Assembly: GCF_003384035.1 (NCBI RefSeq)
Contig: NZ_QQAK01000009.1
Span: 62,001-126,000, forward strand
Origin: Sporosarcina sp. BI001-red
GTDB lineage: Bacteria > Bacillota > Bacilli > Bacillales_A > Planococcaceae
Direction of reading: 5' to 3'
DNA: 64,000 nt
Shown here: one piece after another, positions 37,214 through 61,344 of the stretch
How positions within the stretch are numbered: the stretch's first letter is position 1
Layout of the letters: each line of letters begins with the position of its first letter
The notes under the pieces: model-generated
Database searches by the model: none
Told to the model about the DNA's origin: nothing
The model's input: only the letters and a program-made list of their open reading frames with translations
Position numbers and translations under genes: made by a program

Positions 37214-37417
37214 TGATTAGCTTCCTCCTTATAAAACAGTTATTCGATTGCTACGCGTCTATAATCATAGAACAAAAAGAAGTCGGTTGCAATGGCAACA
37301 TTGTGTCTGGAAGAGTATTTAAGATAACTGATGAGAAAAGGATGACTTATTCATCTGATGTTGATTACAATGGGGTATAGAGTTATATGGATGGCAGTTG
37401 TAAGAGGGGGTGGGCAG

Positions 37418-38485
37418 TTGAAACGAATATGGAAAGTGCTTGTATTATTAGTGGTTGCACTTCTTACAGTTTACTTTTGGGATGATGGATTCAAAGAGAA
37501 CGAGCCATTGGAATCACCTGTTCAGCCTGGGACTGCTATTAGCGGAGGGGAACCTTTCGAACAGCAAGGTATGAGTAATGCGAAACGGCCAGATAAAGGG
37601 ATTTCTACTGTGGTAGGCCGCTCTTCAGATGATTTGATTAAGCTGTATGGTGAACCAGATCGCAAGGATCTCTCAGTATTCGGTTTCGAATGGTGGATCT
37701 ATAATGCGAATCCGATGTTAATGGTAGGAGTTGCAGAAGGTAAGGTGAATCAGATATATAGTGCGGATCGCAAGGCGGATGTCTATCCATATGAAAATGG
37801 GCAAAGTAGTGAGGATATTTATCGAAGCACGATCATTGAGTCTGAATTGGAAGTGGTCGTAGGGGAGAATCAGTATACGTTTGTACTCAATGGAGATGAC
37901 GTTAAAAACAAAATGCTAATTCAATCAGAAGGTCTTTTCACTCAATTATATATAGATGAAAAAGGTCAACAATTGGAAGGTGTCCGTTTCATCGATCCCA
38001 TGACACTTGTCATGCAGCAGCCGTATGACCTTTTCTACAAAGGGGACCTGGTGGAAGTGAAGAAGCCTTCATCTGTAGATCAGATGGCTGTAGATCGCGC
38101 GTTGGAGCGTCAAATTCTTGACATCACCAATATTTATCGGACGAATCATGAGGTAGGTAAGTTGAAACGGGACTACCAACTTCAACTTGTTGCACGTGAA
38201 CATAGTAAGGAAATGGCGTTACAAAATTATTTTTCCCAAGATTCACCGACATCCGGAACACTTGCCAATCGATTGGACGTGGCCGGAATTAACGTAAAAA
38301 AAGCAGGAGAAAATATAGCGTTGAATTATACGGATGCCATTGAAGCGGTTCATGGTTGGTTGAATTCTCCTGCGCACCAAGAAGTTTTGTTGGATAAAAA
38401 CTTTACACATATCGGTACTGGCGTGTATGGAAATTATTATACGCAAAATTTAGTACAAGAAGTTGAAAAACCAGATAGACCATAA
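37418..38485 (+). CDS. ylbC: CAP (SCP/PR1) domain secreted or anchored protein YlbC
   Basis: A 355-residue exported protein. The start is a TTG at 37418 after GGGGGTGGG. An N-terminal hydrophobic anchor (about 4-22) is followed by a CAP-associated domain (about 65-210, with RSSDDLIKLYGEPDRKD) and a C-terminal CAP domain (about 235-350) with HSKEMALQNYFSQ and GENIALNY, the family's metal-site region. The order matches B. subtilis YlbC. CAP proteins act outside the cell; some are proteases or bind lipids, and the function here is open. Confidence 0.9.
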   Translation: MKRIWKVLVLLVVALLTVYFWDDGFKENEPLESPVQPGTAISGGEPFEQQGMSNAKRPDKGISTVVGRSSDDLIKLYGEPDRKDLSVFGFEWWIYNANPMLMVGVAEGKVNQIYSADRKADVYPYENGQSSEDIYRSTIIESELEVVVGENQYTFVLNGDDVKNKMLIQSEGLFTQLYIDEKGQQLEGVRFIDPMTLVMQQPYDLFYKGDLVEVKKPSSVDQMAVDRALERQILDITNIYRTNHEVGKLKRDYQLQLVAREHSKEMALQNYFSQDSPTSGTLANRLDVAGINVKKAGENIALNYTDAIEAVHGWLNSPAHQEVLLDKNFTHIGTGVYGNYYTQNLVQEVEKPDRP

Positions 38486-38490
38486 AGAAA

Positions 38491-39231
38491 TTAAGAAGAG
38501 TGTGGGGTAATCCACGTCCCTTCTTCCGCTACAGCAATTCCTCTAACACAAAGAGGGATTGCTGTTTCTTTTGCATGAAGAGCTGCGCGTTTTTGAATGA
38601 TTGGTCGAGCACAGTCTAATAGTGGCAAAAATTCATCGATGGTCAACGAATCGAATTTTTTAGCATTAGAATAGATATGGGGATCTGCTGACATTACGCC
38701 AGGGACATCCTTGAAAAACTCCACATGAGAGGCGTTCAGACTGCTACCAAGAGCGATAGCTGTCAGATCACTCCCTCCCCTACCTAGTGTCATGTAATCC
38801 CCTCCTACACTCATCCCTTGAAATCCAGGTATGATTAAGCACTTGTAATCTTGCAAACTCTTTTCGATATAGCTTGTCTCGATTGACTCGATGGTTGCGT
38901 TACCAAAAGGGCCAAGGGTCTTAATGCCAGAATTTACACTATGCATGACCCTATTAGAAATCCCTGCTTCCTCCAATTCTGCACTAAGGACAGCGGATGC
39001 AATCAGTTCTCCGCAAGCTGCCGCTAGGTCCCAAGAAGCCGTAGAGGATTTAAATGACGGTGTTATAGACAGTAGTCTATCTGTAGAATATGGACTTTCC
39101 TGACGTCCAATTGCAGAAACGACAACGATAACCTTATCGTATGAAATTAGACCCTCTTGAATTCGTTCAATACATAAACGACGCATCGTGCGATCTTTCA
39201 TCGCAGCGCCTCCAAATTTTTGGATAATCAT
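38491..39231 (-). CDS. Aspartokinase, catalytic domain only (no ACT domains)
   Basis: A 246-residue amino-acid kinase-fold protein, start ATG 39231 with GGGAGA upstream. It keeps the aspartokinase opening IIQKFGG, the CGELIASA segment with the substrate Glu, GRGGSDLTAIAL for aspartate/ATP binding, and DVPGVMSADP. The usual C-terminal ACT domains (about 150 residues) that give lysine or threonine feedback are absent, so it should not be inhibited that way. The usual KFGGTS is changed to KFGGAA. It is divergent from murE and inserted between ylbC and ricF. It may feed aspartate into DAP and dipicolinate synthesis during sporulation (inference). Confidence 0.85.
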   Translation of the reverse strand: MIIQKFGGAAMKDRTMRRLCIERIQEGLISYDKVIVVVSAIGRQESPYSTDRLLSITPSFKSSTASWDLAAACGELIASAVLSAELEEAGISNRVMHSVNSGIKTLGPFGNATIESIETSYIEKSLQDYKCLIIPGFQGMSVGGDYMTLGRGGSDLTAIALGSSLNASHVEFFKDVPGVMSADPHIYSNAKKFDSLTIDEFLPLLDCARPIIQKRAALHAKETAIPLCVRGIAVAEEGTWITPHSS

Positions 39232-39252
39232 CTCGTCTCCCAACTTTCTTCG

Positions 39253-39281
39253 TGACATTTACCGGATGCTTTTCATACTCT
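39253..39281 (+). promoter_or_regulatory. Candidate sigma-E (mother-cell) promoter of murE
   Basis: TGACATT (39253-39259) matches 5 of 7 positions of the sigma-E -35 element (KMATATT). After a 14-nt spacer CATACTCT (39274-39281) matches 7 of 8 of the -10 element (CATACAHT). No good sigma-A promoter is seen in this 112-bp gap. Confidence 0.45.
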
Positions 39282-39343
39282 GTGGTAGGTTCACTCTTAC
39301 TATATTCCCTGGAAAGAAAAACGTTCGGGAAGGAGAAATTGAT

Positions 39344-40774
39344 TTGCATCTGATCGAATTACTAAAAGATTGGCCATGCACGATCCAAGGGAACTGGCGA
39401 GACGTTACAATTGACTCAGTTACCGAGCATCCAAACCGTCTTAAGAAGAATTGTTTATTTATTGCTAGAAAAGGCGCTCATCATGATGGAATGGAGTCAA
39501 TTGAGGAGGCACTGGATAGAGGAGCCGCTGCGATTGTCATTGACCGTTCAGTACCGGAATGTAATCTGTCTAAATGGAGTCAACGAGGAGTTGCCATTGT
39601 GACTGTCCCCGACTGCAAACGGTTCTTATCTTATAGTAGTGCACAATTATCAGGAGATCCTTCGGAAGAATTAACGATAATTGCAGTGACTGGTACGAAT
39701 GGTAAAACCACTGTAACGCATTTTATAAGCCAGTTACTCTCGCAATTTGGCATCAAGACGGCTGTGCTCGGAACGACAGGTTGTTATATAGATGGAGAAA
39801 AGTTCGATGAAGAAATGCCACCGCTTACAACGCCAACTGCAGAGTATTTACATCCTTTATTGCGCAAATGCAAAGACCGGGGAGTTACGCACGTTGCGTT
39901 AGAGGCTTCTTCACTTGGATTGGAAATGGGGAGGCTCGCTCATTGTCACGTATCAATCGGGGTCTTCTTGAATATAGGAGTCGATCATTTTGAAGAGCAT
40001 GGTGGACGTGAACATTATATTGCAGCGAAAAAAAGGCTATGTTCGTTGTCTGAGCAACTCGTAGTGAATTGTGAAGATGTGGAATGTATGCACATTGTCA
40101 AGGATATAGAGCTACCCATTCATTTGTTTGGAAGAAATATTGCAGGAGGATGTATGCCTTCGGAAGAATTAATTGGATCGTTGCCTCCAGGGGAGCATAA
40201 TCGCTTAAACGCAATGGCCGCTGCAACTGTTGTGAAGTTATTAGGTTTTCCAGAGAGGGAAATTTTCACTGCATTTCGTCTGTTAACCTTACCAGAAGGT
40301 CGGATGCAGCTTGTGGAACATGAGGGAAGGCGAGTTTACATCGATTATGCCCACACCCCAGATGCGTTGTCTGCTGCTTTACAAGCAGTAACTAGTTTGA
40401 ACCCAAGAAAGCTTATTTGTGTATTTGGTTGTGGAGGAGATCGAGACAAAGAGAAGCGACCAGTTATGGGTAAGATTGCTGAGAATTATTGTGACACTGT
40501 AGTCCTTACATCTGATAATCCTCGAAGTGAACATCCATTGGCTATCGTCCAACACATTTTAAAAGGAACGGCGGACCCTACGTCAATCTGCGTAGTCATG
40601 GATCGAAAGCGTGCCATTCATCAAGCAATCGCCGCGAGTCAGCCAAATGATATCGTTCTAATAGCGGGTAAAGGTCACGAAACGTCACAGATCATTGGAA
40701 GTGAGGAAATTAGAATGTCTGATCTCGCTGAAGCGATGACGGCACTTCATCAGCTGGAAACCTTTCAGGAATGA
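39344..40774 (+). CDS. murE: UDP-N-acetylmuramoyl-tripeptide synthetase MurE, meso-DAP-adding type
   Basis: Adds the third residue to the peptidoglycan stem peptide. The start is a TTG at 39344, 8 nt after GGAAGGAG, giving 476 residues. The P-loop is VTGTNGKTTVTHF (from about 115); the substrate motif is DNPR (391-394), and GKGHE follows. DNPR and GKGHE are typical of meso-diaminopimelate ligases; lysine ligases lack the Arg. The gene is outside the dcw cluster, where murE is missing. Next to an aspartokinase and behind a sigma-E-like promoter, it may be the cortex-specific MurE of a spore-former with a lysine-type vegetative wall (inference). Confidence 0.88.
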   Translation: MHLIELLKDWPCTIQGNWRDVTIDSVTEHPNRLKKNCLFIARKGAHHDGMESIEEALDRGAAAIVIDRSVPECNLSKWSQRGVAIVTVPDCKRFLSYSSAQLSGDPSEELTIIAVTGTNGKTTVTHFISQLLSQFGIKTAVLGTTGCYIDGEKFDEEMPPLTTPTAEYLHPLLRKCKDRGVTHVALEASSLGLEMGRLAHCHVSIGVFLNIGVDHFEEHGGREHYIAAKKRLCSLSEQLVVNCEDVECMHIVKDIELPIHLFGRNIAGGCMPSEELIGSLPPGEHNRLNAMAAATVVKLLGFPEREIFTAFRLLTLPEGRMQLVEHEGRRVYIDYAHTPDALSAALQAVTSLNPRKLICVFGCGGDRDKEKRPVMGKIAENYCDTVVLTSDNPRSEHPLAIVQHILKGTADPTSICVVMDRKRAIHQAIAASQPNDIVLIAGKGHETSQIIGSEEIRMSDLAEAMTALHQLETFQE

Positions 40775-40801
40775 ACAAGTGATGCGTTTACTCCATCTAT
40801 T

Positions 40802-40810
40802 TGGTATAAT
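40802..40810 (+). promoter_or_regulatory. Extended -10 promoter of ricF
   Basis: TGGTATAAT is a TGn extended -10 with a perfect TATAAT (40805-40810); no clear -35 is seen. It lies 26 nt before the ricF start. Confidence 0.5.
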
Positions 40811-40835
40811 GATGGGGAATGGAGGGAAATCACAT

Positions 40836-41279
40836 ATGATGATGACCGACGAATGGCTTGCCATCATCGAACAAACAGACGAATTGGCAGAGATGATTTT
40901 AACATCCGACGTATTAGTTGGGTACCGCTCCGCTCATCATGCAGTATACAGTGATCCGGATTTAGTGAAGAAAATTCGAGGCTTTTCTGAGATGAAAGAC
41001 CGCTATGAAGAGGTGCAGCGGTTTGGAAGATACCATCCGGATTATAATATAGTAATGAAGTCTATACGACTCGACAAAAGAGCGTTAGATATGAATGAGA
41101 AAGTGGCAACGCTGCGACTTGCAGAGAATGATGTCCAATACATGTTGGATGAAATTAGTGCAGGGATTGCCCATTCTGTATCTGAATCCGTAAAATTACC
41201 GACAGACAATACATTTGTAACGGATTCTTCTTGCGGAGGTAGTTGCGGAACTGGCGGCGGTTGCTCATGTTCAGCATAA
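40836..41279 (+). CDS. ricF: RicF (YlbF), Fe-S-binding RNA-maturation/sporulation factor
   Basis: A 147-residue YlbF/YmcA-family protein, start at the first of three ATGs behind GGAGGG. The body is helical; the C-terminal tail has four cysteines (133, 137, 143, 145) in a Gly/Ser-rich stretch, as in B. subtilis RicF, where such cysteines help hold Fe-S clusters. RicF works with RicA (YmcA) and RicT (YaaT) in RNase Y-dependent RNA processing, Spo0A activation, competence and biofilm formation. ylbD and ylbE, which precede it in B. subtilis, are absent here. Confidence 0.9.
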   Translation: MMMTDEWLAIIEQTDELAEMILTSDVLVGYRSAHHAVYSDPDLVKKIRGFSEMKDRYEEVQRFGRYHPDYNIVMKSIRLDKRALDMNEKVATLRLAENDVQYMLDEISAGIAHSVSESVKLPTDNTFVTDSSCGGSCGTGGGCSCSA

Positions 41280-41293
41280 CCTGAATAGAATAC

Positions 41294-41327
41294 AAAAAAG
41301 CGGATGGCTCTTCAGCCATCCGCTTTT
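41294..41327. terminator. Bidirectional terminator between ricF and the GDPD-like gene
   Basis: AAAAAAGCGGATGGCT pairs with AGCCATCCGCTTTT around a 4-nt loop; it overlaps the stop codon of the convergent gene. Confidence 0.95.
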
Positions 41328-42105
41328 AGTTTTCAAGTAAAGTATCTAATTGTGCCATTGTTAACTTTGGAGAATCTGTGATGAAACCCGAAATACCTGC
41401 TTGCGCCAGCTTGACGACGTCATCTGTTTCGTAGTTTTCTACATAGACACTGATGTTCAGTTTATTTAGAAACTGGATGAAACCCTCACTTGCTGGTTGA
41501 AATGGACCGATCTTACCAGCTAAAACGAAAAGATCCGTCCGGGGATGGTAGAGATGTCCAAAACGGCTAGTAAATGCAGCATACGCTTGCTTCAGTTCGA
41601 TCACCCCTGCTCCTACAGCAGCCATATGTTGTGTATACAAGTTGAAACGATCTACTTGTTCATCATAGTGACTGATGACAGCAACTTGTTCTTGGGCTTC
41701 ACATTCTTCGAGCAGTTTCCATAACTTTGAAGGCATCAAACTACCTTCATAGGTATCTGGTGAATCTGCTATCCGAATGATGAAGAGTAAATGTGGATAA
41801 AGGGCAAGCATATCTTTAAGTAAGCAATAGGAGGATTCTGGATGTTCATAGTTTACGAGAATGATTTCTTCATTGGCTGTCAATTTAACATCCATTGCGA
41901 AACCGTGAACTCCAAGGGAAGCAGCTTCAGCAGCTTGTTGTTCACTATTGGTGGTGTCGGTTAATTGTTGAATAACAATAGGTCCTTCAAAGTGAAGCGC
42001 TTTTTTTGTGAGTCTCGCGTTTGGGCGGATGATTGCTTTTGAAGCAGCCCAGGCTGCTGCGCCTACTGCACCTACCGAAAGGGCAACTTTTGTTTTTCTT
42101 CCCAT
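41326..42105 (-). CDS. GDPD-like (PLC-like TIM barrel) protein, apparently inactive
   Basis: A 259-residue protein with an N-terminal Ala-rich hydrophobic segment (about 6-26). The rest resembles glycerophosphodiester phosphodiesterases: SEQQAAEAASLGVHGFAMDVKLT is at the place of the metal-binding ELDV strand, and GISGFITDSPKL matches the family's last strand. The catalytic His-Arg-Gly is replaced by a Gln-Gln-Leu stretch, the ENT motif is absent and the usual His-Asp becomes an Asn-Tyr context. It is therefore likely a non-catalytic homologue, a call made from motifs alone. Confidence 0.7.
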   Translation of the reverse strand: MGRKTKVALSVGAVGAAAWAASKAIIRPNARLTKKALHFEGPIVIQQLTDTTNSEQQAAEAASLGVHGFAMDVKLTANEEIILVNYEHPESSYCLLKDMLALYPHLLFIIRIADSPDTYEGSLMPSKLWKLLEECEAQEQVAVISHYDEQVDRFNLYTQHMAAVGAGVIELKQAYAAFTSRFGHLYHPRTDLFVLAGKIGPFQPASEGFIQFLNKLNISVYVENYETDDVVKLAQAGISGFITDSPKLTMAQLDTLLEN

Positions 42106-42508: not shown

Positions 42509-42904
42509 TTAGTCCAGTTGCGGCAACAAGTTATTGAGGCGTAAAACCCCAGTTACGTATTGGTAAAACAATTTTGTTTCTGGAAACTCTGAAGAATGTT
42601 TAAGTTCGACTGGGACAGGCTTGCTGCCGACAGATGTGGCGGCTTCTTCAAATACGAGTTGTCGTTTAGAAGCGCTACCTTCTTTTGATGGGATTCCTTC
42701 GCGACATATATAGATCGGGTAAAATCCACCTTCACCTGCAGGCGAGAAAGAAGCGGCTATAGAAATGGAAGGTTTGCCCTCTTTCGTTGTTGCTTTAAAC
42801 AAGAAGGTCCTCTCAAGTCTGTTCGCGTTTGTTGTAATTAGTTCGCATAATTCATAAATATCCGAGTACCCTTCACCGAGTTCAATGAATCGTTGTTGTC
42901 GCAT
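42509..42904 (-). CDS. Conserved hypothetical protein downstream of ylbG
   Basis: A 131-residue soluble protein, start ATG 42904 with AAAGGTG about 12 nt upstream; a GTG at 42919 is the alternative. It opens MRQQRFIELGEGYSDIYELCEL and has a conserved-looking FYPIYICREGIP. I recall similar bacillar proteins carrying a methylthioribose kinase label, but I see no kinase motif and treat that label as unreliable. It converges on ylbG with 2 nt between the stop codons and no terminator. Confidence 0.75.
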   Translation of the reverse strand: MRQQRFIELGEGYSDIYELCELITTNANRLERTFLFKATTKEGKPSISIAASFSPAGEGGFYPIYICREGIPSKEGSASKRQLVFEEAATSVGSKPVPVELKHSSEFPETKLFYQYVTGVLRLNNLLPQLD

Positions 42905-44155: not shown

Positions 44156-45046
44156 TCATAAAAGTATATAAAGAAACACAGGGACTGTTAATACGCTCCA
44201 GATGCGACCAATCACATAAGGTTTAAGAGACAGATCGGCTGAACGGGCGATGACGAATACTTGCATGTGAATACTTAAGCCATTGATGGAGAGAATGGCA
44301 GCGATTAAATACGGAAAGATTGGGGAACCATAAAAATGCTGCGTGGCGGACTGAACACCCGATGTCATTTCGAACAACGAAAGGACAATTGTTTTCACAA
44401 TCCCCATTTCAACGGTGGCAGCGGCTTGAATGACACTTGTTAGTACATTTCCAAGAGATGAAAAAAACACGACAGTCGTGGCGACTAAAATGATAATGGA
44501 TGAACTTTCCTTGAATGCATCTAGTAAAGGCGCGGAACTAGGTGCCGGTATCGGTGCATTGTCAGGCATCTCATGTTGAGAACGTCTTGATGCCATTAAC
44601 AATAGAATGAATAGGAAAAAGATAATATTAGCGGCGTGAATTGCAATGAGCAATTTCCACCCGGACATCGAATTTCCGAACAGTTCTAGCCCTACATACC
44701 CAACGATGAACATTGGACCTGGCGCATGACAAGCTGCTAGGAGAAGACTGCTTTCGTAAGTGGAAAGTTGTCCGTTCCGTTTCATCTCACTTACCGTCAC
44801 CGCTCCAACAGGAAACCCTCCGAATGATCCGAGTGTGTACGCCTTTAAATAGCGCAACCAAGTAGGAGAAGAATTTTTGGAAACGGGTAATTTTAAGAGC
44901 CATTGGGTTAGAATGATGTACGGCAGTAAATAGGGAAGCAATGCCTGCACAAACAATTTCACGCCTGTCTCTGCTCCATCATGAGCAATCCCAGGCTGTA
45001 AAATGAACAACGCAATGAGCGCCCAAATCATAATGACGTTGATCAT
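44156..45046 (-). CDS. ylbJ: Sporulation integral membrane protein YlbJ
   Basis: A 296-residue polytopic protein with about eight helices and conserved segments GSFGGFPVGAVTVSEMKRNG and HAPGPMFIVGYVG of the YlbJ/nucleoside-gate family. In B. subtilis ylbJ is under sigma-E and is needed for heat-resistant spores. The ATG at 45046 has no good ribosome binding site of its own; its first bases overlap the stop of a 12-codon mini-ORF (45043-45081) with an ideal one. The usual neighbour ylbK is missing here. Confidence 0.88.
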   Translation of the reverse strand: MINVIMIWALIALFILQPGIAHDGAETGVKLFVQALLPYLLPYIILTQWLLKLPVSKNSSPTWLRYLKAYTLGSFGGFPVGAVTVSEMKRNGQLSTYESSLLLAACHAPGPMFIVGYVGLELFGNSMSGWKLLIAIHAANIIFFLFILLLMASRRSQHEMPDNAPIPAPSSAPLLDAFKESSSIIILVATTVVFFSSLGNVLTSVIQAAATVEMGIVKTIVLSLFEMTSGVQSATQHFYGSPIFPYLIAAILSINGLSIHMQVFVIARSADLSLKPYVIGRIWSVLTVPVFLYILL

Positions 45047-45081
45047 GCTTCTCGTGCAAGTATAGATGGCTTTGTAATCAC
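45043..45081 (-). CDS. 12-codon leader mini-ORF overlapping the ylbJ start
   Basis: A GTG at 45081 lies 8 nt after a perfect AAGGAG and opens a frame of 12 residues (MITKPSILAREA) that ends in TGA inside ATGA, where the ATG is the ylbJ start. This would allow coupled translation of ylbJ. The alternative is a one-base frameshift (natural or sequencing) that has separated the true N-terminus from ylbJ. Confidence 0.5.
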   Translation of the reverse strand: MITKPSILAREA

Positions 45082-45205
45082 GCTTGCGGCTCCTTTCTCT
45101 ATTGTGTGAGAAGCTCAAACAAAAAACATTGTGCCGCTCATTTTTCAGATGATACACTTAACCATATGTTATCTAAGTACAGGCTATTAATGGAGGTGCA
45201 GGAAA

Positions 45206-58401: not shown

Positions 58402-60315
58402 TTGAAAGAAATCACCGGAATGCGGTCTAAGAAAAGACTGCGGGCCGTGTTCATTATTTTTTTACTTTTACTCGGAGCTACTGTGGGAAAGTTATTCCAT
58501 GCACAGATCATTAAACATGAATGGCTAAAAGAGCGCGCACAAGCAAACTGGGATCGAGAGATTCCTTTTGGTGGTGTAAGAGGGGAGATTGTGGATAGGA
58601 ACGGCAAGTTGATTGTAGGAAACCAACTTGCCCCTACACTTTACTTCATGCCGCCACAGAACCCGGATCCTGAAGAAGCAGCAGCAAAACTTGCACCGAT
58701 ATTACAAGTCGATCAGGCGAAGTTAGCTGAGAAAATGAGTAAAAAAGCTTACATGGTTAAATTGGCACCAGAGGGGAAAAACATTGACAAAGCTCAAGCG
58801 GATGAAATTTCAGCGTTGAAAATCCCGGGTTTGTACACGGGGGTGGATTTCATGCGAAGTTACCCAAATGGAGAATTACTCTCTCGTCTTTTAGGGTTTA
58901 CGGGGTATGATGGTAAAGGTCTTGCCGGAATTGAATATGCATATAACGAGTTTTTGGATGGAACGGGCGACAAAATTCGAATGTACACTGATGCAAGAGG
59001 CGTTCCACTTCCCCATGTGGATGATGACTTCAAAGACGGTAAAGAGGGCTCATCCGTAGTATTGACAATCGATGCTGAAATGCAAAAAATTGTTGAACGG
59101 GAACTTTCACAAGCAATGGAAAAGTATGATGCTAACCAAGCACTTGCGATTGTGATGAACCCAAAAACAGGAGAGTTACTCTCTTTAGCATCTACACCGA
59201 CATTCGATCCTTCGAACTATCAGGATGTGAAACCCGATATTTATAATCGAAACTTACCGGTTTGGATGACTTTCGAGCCTGGCTCCACGTTTAAGATTAT
59301 GACACTAGCAGCAGGACTGGAAGAAAAAGTTATTGACTTGGACCATGAAACCTTTAATGATCCAGGGTATACTATGGTAGGTGGGGCCCGCTTGCGTTGC
59401 TGGAAGCGAGAAGGTCATGGCCATCAATCTTTTCTGGAAGTCGTTGAGAACTCTTGTAACCCAGGTTTCATTGAAATCGGACGACGTCTAGGAGAAGAAA
59501 AACTATCTTCATATATTCGTGATTTCGGTTTTGGTGAATCTACAGAATCGGGTATTGCTGGTGAAGCAAAAGGGATTTTGTTTGCGAAAGATGCATTTGG
59601 TCCTGTGGAGCAAGCGACGACCGCATTCGGTCAAGGGATTGCAGTGACTCCGATTCAACAAGTGCAGGCTGTAGCCGCAGCCGTTAACGGTGGAATGCTG
59701 TACAAACCATATATCGTTAAAGAGATAATTGGCCCGGATGGGAATGCAACCCAATCGTACGTGCCTGAGATGAAGCGCCGTGTTGTAAGTGAAGAAACGT
59801 CTGCTGAAGTTCGAAGAGCACTTGAATCTGTAGTTGCAAATGGTTCAGGCCGCAATGCATTTGTCGATGAAATACGAGTTGGCGGGAAGACGGGAACAGC
59901 ACAAAAGGTTCAAGATGGAACGTACAAAGAAGGGGACTATATTGTCTCGTTCATAGGTATTGCACCTTCCAATGACCCTGAATTAGTCGTCTATGTTGCA
60001 ATTGATAATCCTAAAAACTCAGTTCAGTTTGGAGGCGTCATCGCAGCGCCAATTGTTGGAAGAATTATTGAAGAAATAGCTCCTTTAGCAGGAATTCAAC
60101 CACAAAAAGATCAGGTGGAAAAAGAATATCGTTGGGGTGATCCATTAACACAGCGTGTTCCTGACCTAAAAGGACTCACAAAAGACGAAGTTGCAAAGCA
60201 ACAGTACACGCTCAGAATTGAGTGGCACGGAAATGGCAAGAAAGTTAGTAAACAATTACCTGTTCCAGGAACAGTAGTGAATGAAGAAGATGTGATTCAC
60301 TTATATACAGAGTAA
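58402..60315 (+). CDS. spoVD: Stage V sporulation protein D, cortex transpeptidase
   Basis: Class B penicillin-binding protein that crosslinks spore cortex peptidoglycan in the mother cell. Start is a TTG at 58402, 9 nt after GAGAGGTG. The 637-residue protein has an anchor (about 13-30), a transpeptidase domain with Ser295 in GSTFKIM, SCN and GGKTGTAQ, and one C-terminal PASTA domain (about 580-637). One PASTA domain and the place after pbpB distinguish it from PBP2B. Its presence shows that the organism forms endospores. mraY, not murE, comes next. Confidence 0.93.
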   Translation: MKEITGMRSKKRLRAVFIIFLLLLGATVGKLFHAQIIKHEWLKERAQANWDREIPFGGVRGEIVDRNGKLIVGNQLAPTLYFMPPQNPDPEEAAAKLAPILQVDQAKLAEKMSKKAYMVKLAPEGKNIDKAQADEISALKIPGLYTGVDFMRSYPNGELLSRLLGFTGYDGKGLAGIEYAYNEFLDGTGDKIRMYTDARGVPLPHVDDDFKDGKEGSSVVLTIDAEMQKIVERELSQAMEKYDANQALAIVMNPKTGELLSLASTPTFDPSNYQDVKPDIYNRNLPVWMTFEPGSTFKIMTLAAGLEEKVIDLDHETFNDPGYTMVGGARLRCWKREGHGHQSFLEVVENSCNPGFIEIGRRLGEEKLSSYIRDFGFGESTESGIAGEAKGILFAKDAFGPVEQATTAFGQGIAVTPIQQVQAVAAAVNGGMLYKPYIVKEIIGPDGNATQSYVPEMKRRVVSEETSAEVRRALESVVANGSGRNAFVDEIRVGGKTGTAQKVQDGTYKEGDYIVSFIGIAPSNDPELVVYVAIDNPKNSVQFGGVIAAPIVGRIIEEIAPLAGIQPQKDQVEKEYRWGDPLTQRVPDLKGLTKDEVAKQQYTLRIEWHGNGKKVSKQLPVPGTVVNEEDVIHLYTE

Positions 60316-60372
60316 TTGTACGAATACTACTGAACCAACAACTTGTTTGGGAACACAGAAGGAGAACTAAAC

Positions 60373-61344
60373 ATGACGCTCGCCACAACAATCACGGCAA
60401 TTGCCGTAACATTTGGCCTTACAGCTCTACTGGGCTATGCGATTATCCCACTTCTGAGACGGATGAAATTCGGCCAAAGCATTCGAGAAGAGGGGCCACA
60501 AGCCCACATGAAAAAAGCAGGGACACCAACAATGGGCGGACTGATTTTCCTAGTCGCGATTCTTATTGCAACGCCTATTTTGTCTTACATAAATGGCGTG
60601 CTCACTACCCAGACAATCGTTCTATTGCTCGTCTTGGTCGGTTTCGGGGTTATTGGGTTCATTGATGACTTTATCATCGTGGTGATGAAACGAAATTTAG
60701 GTTTGACTTCTTTACAAAAACTAATCGGGCAAATTATTATCGCGATCTTTGCGTTTTTCTTACTGAAATTAGGACCATTTGATACAGTGATTTCGATTCC
60801 GTTTACCGGATTTGAAATCGATATGGGAATCTTTTATGTCGTATTCCTAATATTTTGGCTCGTTGGATTCTCGAATGCTGTGAATCTCACGGATGGATTG
60901 GATGGCCTCGTGTCAGGTACATCATCAATTGCATTCTCAGCATTCGGTATTCTTGCAGTATCCTATAATCAGCAAGATATCGCGATGTTTTCATTTGTCG
61001 TATCGGGAGCTATGCTCGGTTTCCTATTGTTCAACATGAAACCTGCACGGGTATTTATGGGGGATACAGGTTCACTAGCACTTGGTGGTGCGTTGGCAAT
61101 GATTTCAATGCTCATGAAGCAAGAGTTCTTGCTGCTCATAATCGGAATTGTTTACGTCATTGAGACATTATCAGTGATCATTCAAGTGATTAGTTTTAAA
61201 ACGACAGGCAAACGGGTATTCAAGATGAGTCCGATCCATCATCATTTTGAACTTTCTGGATGGTCGGAATGGAAAGTGGTACTTGTCTTTTGGGGAATTG
61301 CTTTCCTCGCTGCAATCGTACCTGTACTTATGGAGGTGATGTAA
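60373..61344 (+). CDS. mraY: Phospho-N-acetylmuramoyl-pentapeptide transferase
   Basis: Makes lipid I from UDP-MurNAc-pentapeptide and undecaprenyl phosphate. The 323-residue protein, start 60373 after GGAG, has about ten membrane helices and the conserved KKAGTPTMGG, GFIDDF, NAVNLTDGLDGL and FMGDTGSLALGG motifs with the catalytic Asp residues, plus PIHHHFE. It starts 58 nt after the spoVD stop; murE, which normally sits here, is missing. Confidence 0.96.
   Translation: MTLATTITAIAVTFGLTALLGYAIIPLLRRMKFGQSIREEGPQAHMKKAGTPTMGGLIFLVAILIATPILSYINGVLTTQTIVLLLVLVGFGVIGFIDDFIIVVMKRNLGLTSLQKLIGQIIIAIFAFFLLKLGPFDTVISIPFTGFEIDMGIFYVVFLIFWLVGFSNAVNLTDGLDGLVSGTSSIAFSAFGILAVSYNQQDIAMFSFVVSGAMLGFLLFNMKPARVFMGDTGSLALGGALAMISMLMKQEFLLLIIGIVYVIETLSVIIQVISFKTTGKRVFKMSPIHHHFELSGWSEWKVVLVFWGIAFLAAIVPVLMEVM

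Follow-up and report, generated by a model that had tools for sequence, protein, structure and literature searches.

The gene at 39344-40774 (+ strand) of the window, by which we mean the whole 64,000-nucleotide stretch of Sporosarcina sp. BI001-red DNA analyzed here, very probably encodes a sporulation-linked MurE that adds diaminopimelate (DAP) and serves cortex synthesis. Its substrate, timing and cortex product are inferred, in the absence of expression, enzyme or wall data. Our observations are that the MurE fold and active-site residues are intact, that the genome encodes another MurE, that the gene strictly co-occurs with sporulation genes and has repeatedly been lost together with them, and that a promoter element of mother-cell type is conserved. 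In the mechanism we propose, the mother cell would make this protein, here called MurE2, during sporulation, a timing inferred from its promoter and distribution, and the lysine-type MurE1 would make the vegetative precursor. With MurE2, DAP would take the third position of the stem peptide, and the cortex would be built from a DAP-type precursor, as inferred from substrate, timing and classical biochemistry. In the window genome and 57 others, a divergently transcribed aspartokinase without ACT domain (AKcat) would probably supply DAP without feedback inhibition.

MurE2 was annotated as a DAP-type UDP-MurNAc-tripeptide synthetase of 476 aa, a paralogue linked to sporulation. Its open reading frame is complete, and the TTG start is preceded by GGGAAGGAG, a good ribosome-binding site; the frame stays open 5' as far as a GTG at 39188. 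The protein scored 404.7 bits against the NCBIfam murE model TIGR01085 (cut-off 257.3), which meets the MurE family score, and 250.5 bits against the L-lysine-type model NF010628, below its cut-off of 536. DNPR was located at residues 391-394 (D391, N392, R394) and GKGHE at residues 442-446. The reading frame, the TIGR01085 score and the motif positions thus confirmed the sequence-only reading of this gene as a complete Mur ligase carrying both motifs. No match to the N-terminal Mur ligase model PF01225 was obtained in a Pfam search of MurE2. The predicted model showed the full three-domain Mur ligase fold (pLDDT 89.5, pTM 0.89), with E. coli MurE (1e8c, TM 0.86) as its top PDB match by Foldseek. 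The S. aureus enzyme 4c12 also reached TM 0.87, at a weaker E-value, indicating that the fold does not discriminate DAP from lysine enzymes.

Ranked by sequence, the 13 solved relatives of MurE2 are headed by DAP enzymes or a MurE-MurF fusion (259-240 bits), with the S. aureus Lys-MurE 4c12 in last place (148 bits). The P-loop, K229 (the carbamylated-lysine position), the D, N and R of DNPR and the Glu of GKGxE were invariant in all 20 MurE2s aligned; 7 of 21 MurE2s (genera g13, g18 and g19) have Ser, Ala or Cys where DNPR has Pro. MurE2 shares its fold, catalytic motifs, DN.R and GKGHE with the DAP-adding enzymes of E. coli (1e8c) and M. tuberculosis (2wtz), but it is only 30-32% identical to them by structure alignment, falls in a separate clade, is encoded outside the dcw cluster and is kept only together with sporulation genes. 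The S. aureus L-lysine enzyme has the same fold, with DNPA and SKGRE where MurE2 has DNPR and GKGHE. From D391, N392, R394, E446 and these relatives, MurE2 is inferred to be a DAP-adding MurE, an assignment without enzyme data.

The dcw cluster of the window, in which the genes are presumably mraZ, mraW, ftsL, pbpB, spoVD, mraY, murD and spoVE in this order (named by similarity and order), had been read as lacking murE at its usual place. This proved correct, as at the junction (58402-61344, + strand) spoVD (58402-60315) stands directly before mraY (60343-61344), and no murE was found between 60315 and 60343. A Mur-ligase search of the whole 3.52 Mb genome gave six places, among them a second MurE outside the window (MurE1, C9:31473-33014), followed by prfC. 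The window itself occupies positions 62001-126000 of the same contig, C9. The sequence-only reading had called for such a search and would have failed if MurE2 were the only murE; the S. aureus-like MurE1 beside prfC excludes that case. Among solved structures MurE1 is closest to 4c12, the L-lysine MurE of S. aureus (439 bits), whose gene likewise has prfC as a neighbor.

The expectation that the second MurE would have a residue other than Arg at the DNPR position was not borne out, as MurE1 reads DDPR and keeps the Arg. DDPR and GTGG were present in 11/11 MurE1s aligned, the window genome's included, so the DAP-contacting Arg has not been lost; the outgroup MurEs showed DNPR in 20/20, with GCGG in 18 and GAGG in 2. 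MurE1 scored 508 bits against the DAP-named model NF001126, above its cut-off of 373, but only 394.5 bits against the L-lysine model NF010628, for which 536 are required. With the Arg kept and the DAP-named model passed, sequence alone does not prove MurE1 to be lysine-type. In our alignment T. maritima MurE also has DDPR, and this enzyme incorporates the two isomers of lysine in vivo and is able to accept DAP as a substrate in vitro (PMC9434261). A change of DNPA to DNPR in S. aureus MurE created no DAP activity (PMC3829189), so specificity cannot be read from this motif by itself.

With a threshold of E<1e-120, MurE1 was detected in 131 of the 151 family genomes; the 20 without it were 16 of g4 and 4 of g2. 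A third type of MurE was noticed in g2/g4 genomes without MurE1; four were aligned, of which three read DDLN and one DDRN. Such loci are L098, L099, L100 and L105, and also L093, L103 and L104, mostly with DDLN, and the closest solved relative of the L100 protein is T. maritima MurE.

In a tree of 62 MurEs, including 21 MurE2 and 11 MurE1, MurE2 and MurE1 each formed one clade (99 and 100% SH-aLRT, respectively). MurE1 grouped with five Bacillales MurEs having DNPR; the MurE2 clade was deep and long-branched, and the copy of genome G020 was very diverged (end branch 3.4). When 299 genomes of the class were scanned at E<1e-75, 18 had matches, 16 of them family genomes and two outside the family (f1). 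The two non-family matches lay in ordinary dcw clusters and were rejected as MurE2. Diverged MurE2s, such as those of g2, g4 and g18, fall short of this threshold, and copies of that kind outside the family are not excluded by the scan. Mur-ligase relatives without DNPR and GKGHE were also seen in non-sporulating genomes of g7 and g12 (L088, L091 and L102).

The family sample comprised 151 genomes of 19 genera. SpoIVA was over the cut-off in 113 of them, with a strong partial match at a contig end in one more (G099); another 35 have none, and in two (G038 and G054) it is broken. Intact MurE2 was present in 114/114 genomes with spoIVA (85 by matches >300 bits, 29 by reading the region) versus 0/37 with spoIVA absent or broken; dpaB was found in 114 of the 151 genomes, the same 114 as spoIVA. 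In 34 of the 37 spoIVA-negative regions no trace of MurE2 was detected by tblastn at E<1e-3, and debris of the gene remained in three non-sporulating relatives, G001, G038 and G054. In G038 and G054 the beginning of AKcat is missing, together with the intergenic region and roughly 320 N-terminal residues of MurE2, so that AKcat residues 112-226 and the MurE2 C-terminus stand back to back, and G001 retains a C-terminal piece of MurE2 only. G020, which belongs to the same genus and has intact spoIVA, carries both AKcat and a much diverged MurE2.

For a locus tree we used seven proteins of the locus from 68 genomes out of the 151, comprising every one of the 37 negatives and 31 positives. As the states of sporulation and MurE2 coincide in all 68 rows, one vector was used for both, and the tree required six changes of state, always joint. 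All six independent pairs agreed (sign test, p 0.031, the best possible value with six pairs). This quick tree flags long branches, among them the window genome joined with g8, so the count of changes may be off by one. The proposal of the sequence-only reading that this gene is a sporulation-linked second MurE is supported by the distribution of 114/114 versus 0/37, by the six joint changes and by the mother-cell-type promoter element described below.

MurE2 is flanked by a conserved upstream gene for a ylbC-like CAP-domain protein (37358-38485, + strand) and a conserved downstream ylbF-like gene (Com_YlbF; 40779-41279, + strand). Of the 40 sporulator regions read, 39 have it between these two genes, and in the 40th (G024) the contig breaks off after MurE2. 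As all 40 hold MurE2 at the same locus, we rejected contamination or an artefact as its source. Sporosarcina highlanderae shows the same murE2 layout, with AKcat, and is the nearest named relative among the matches listed, from which very near records may be left out; Lysinibacillus was not identified. The scan behind this statement listed 80 loci, one of Sporosarcina and the others general MurEs. Further along the window, a ylbJ-like sporulation protein (44156-45157, - strand) scored 103 bits, well below the curated cut-off of 305. A GDPD-like gene (41326-42105, - strand) encodes 259 aa, compared with about 300 aa or more in relatives; its product had no Pfam match and seems to be without the stretch holding the usual catalytic residues.

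The divergent intergenic region between murE2 and AKcat (39232-39343, 112 bp) contains GTGAC as a -35-like element, 17 nt, and then CATACTCTG as a -10-like element, 61 nt 5' of the murE2 start. This site is without the final TA and is weaker than CATANNNTA. We examined 27 murE2 upstream regions of 130 nt (the window, 20 genomes of 12 other genera and 6 further g1), and expected counts were taken from first-order shuffles. The mother-cell (sigma E/K-type) -10 CATANNNTA was present in 24/27 regions versus 1.25 expected, and CATANNNT in 26/27 versus 4.9 expected; the CATANNNTA motif had been picked after inspection of the sequences, and the upstream sequences are mutually related. GTG[AT]C was found 17 nt before CATANNNT in 15 regions and 16 nt before it in 3, giving a -35-like element in 18/27, and the 21 other spacings between 8 and 30 nt yielded one match. 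CATANNNTA also occurred in 12/17 spoIVA upstream regions, used as a control (0.5 expected), and upstream of AKcat in 5/10 (0.5 expected). Counts at neighboring genes (expected in brackets) were 0/20 for YlbF (0.6), 4/20 for ylbC (2.2), 1/19 for GDPD (1.2), 1/4 for RsmD (0.2), 2/9 for CtaG (0.7), 2/20 for DUF36848 (2.1) and 0/16 for the gene at 42509 (1.0); the count at one neighbor, YlbG, was also raised (4/19 versus 0.6). The spoIVA control is a sigma-E gene in B. subtilis (PMC517825), and sigma E and sigma K have a common -10 and different -35 elements (PMC517825; PMC3789822). Because of this common -10, the murE2 promoter is claimed only as mother-cell type, and which sigma factor is involved remains unresolved. 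Judged from these upstream sequences, murE2 carries a putative sigma E/K-type promoter element, so that the criterion of membership is met, with the start site not mapped.

These data were weighed against other readings of the gene. We regard as unlikely a DAP specificity of MurE1, with its DDPR, together with a vegetative wall of DAP type, which would leave MurE2 as a redundant isozyme for sporulation output. The kept Arg, the passed NF001126 (2,6-DAP) and the failed NF010628 fit such a role for MurE1, but its best solved relative is the S. aureus Lys-MurE with the same prfC neighbor, its DDPR and GTGG in every copy aligned stand against the DNPR of every outgroup MurE, and the walls of Sporosarcina are lysine-type. 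It is quite improbable that MurE2 is a DAP ligase acting outside sporulation, in a stationary-phase or stress wall, with an indirect link to sporulation. Room for this is left by the appearance of a full enzyme and the absence of expression data; however, no genome with absent or broken spoIVA has an intact copy (0/37), the six changes are joint and the promoter element is of mother-cell type.

There is very little to commend the idea that MurE2 has been repurposed or become a pseudo-enzyme, in the manner of the MurE-like plant protein PAP11: although PF01225 went undetected and the branches are long (3.4 for the end branch of G020), the P-loop, K229 and the DAP-contact residues are invariant in 20/20 and the model has all three domains. 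Hardly credible, finally, is a loss of MurE2 with sporulation merely because it is linked to sporulation genes in the ylb region. The locus does hold the ylbJ-like gene at 44156-45157, but non-sporulators keep the flanks, ylbF in 37/37 regions (chosen around ylbF) and ylbC in 36/37 (it was not detected in G027), and it is MurE2 that is gone.

A precedent for a sporulation-linked DAP-adding MurE serving the cortex is Bacillus (Lysinibacillus) sphaericus, which reportedly has a lysine wall and a DAP cortex, with a new DAP ligase activity at sporulation. That system is a biochemical activity, whereas MurE2 is a gene for which the same pattern is proposed. MurE2 offers a concrete gene for a decades-old biochemical observation, that one bacterium, in the course of its life cycle, builds two peptidoglycans that differ in the third residue. 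With MurE2 kept in every one of the 114 spoIVA-bearing genomes, of 13 genera, the question why a cortex should be of DAP type becomes open to testing. The set of sporulation genes gains one for a peptidoglycan precursor, and, in a family where many genera are asporogenous, MurE2 can serve as a sequence marker of probable spore formers. No gene for the B. sphaericus DAP ligase was recognized in the titles and abstracts of the literature (open-licence papers only), and a term search of the main text of a 2012 survey, its supplements not covered, found neither 'murE' nor 'diaminopimel' (PMC3533761).

AKcat (38491-39231, - strand), divergent from murE2, consists of an aspartokinase catalytic domain only (246 aa), with a longer alternative start possible at an ATG at 39258. 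No ACT domain was found in it by family and Pfam searches or in the predicted model, and it fails the criterion for a monofunctional aspartokinase (catalytic domain plus C-terminal ACT domains, KFGGTS). Its best family was the DapG-type aspartokinase NF006068 (PRK08210; 216.8 bits, below the cut-off of 474), but AKcat stops after the catalytic domain. The model (pLDDT 93.2) matched the catalytic part of solved aspartokinases, with TM 0.85 by query length and 0.54 by target length against 5yei. The KFGGTS of the genome's full-length aspartokinase is replaced by K[FY]GG[IVAW]A in 10/10 AKcats; Lys5, Glu75, Arg151 and GGSD are retained, which makes activity likely, if unproven.

AKcat stood beside MurE2 in 58 of the 114 sporulators (57 with >170 bits and adjoining coordinates, plus G020). 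It was not found in the other 56 (g10, g13, g14, g15, g18 and g19), indicating that it is not required. This divergent arrangement is new and was not mentioned in the sequence-only reading; AKcat is probably a DAP-supply partner of MurE2 without feedback inhibition. B. subtilis has dapG in the dpa operon; a dpaA-dpaB-asd-dapA operon without dapG was seen in 21/21 family regions read (e.g. L178:5075-8571). Compensation for a lost dapG was rejected as an explanation of AKcat, because dapG is missing in AKcat-positive (13/13) and AKcat-negative (8/8) regions alike, and the presence of AKcat and the loss of dapG are thus not complementary. As a tentative suggestion, which we hold to be possible rather than probable, the murE2/AKcat divergon may form a mother-cell DAP module. 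A single promoter region would then change the stem-peptide residue and, by way of an aspartokinase no longer under ACT-domain feedback that perhaps replaces dapG, open up the aspartate pathway to supply DAP and dipicolinate when the cortex is synthesized. The window genome has only one aspartokinase over the family cut-off, and its gene lies beside genes named here as threonine genes. The DpaA of this genome scored 53 bits, far below the family cut-off of 320.
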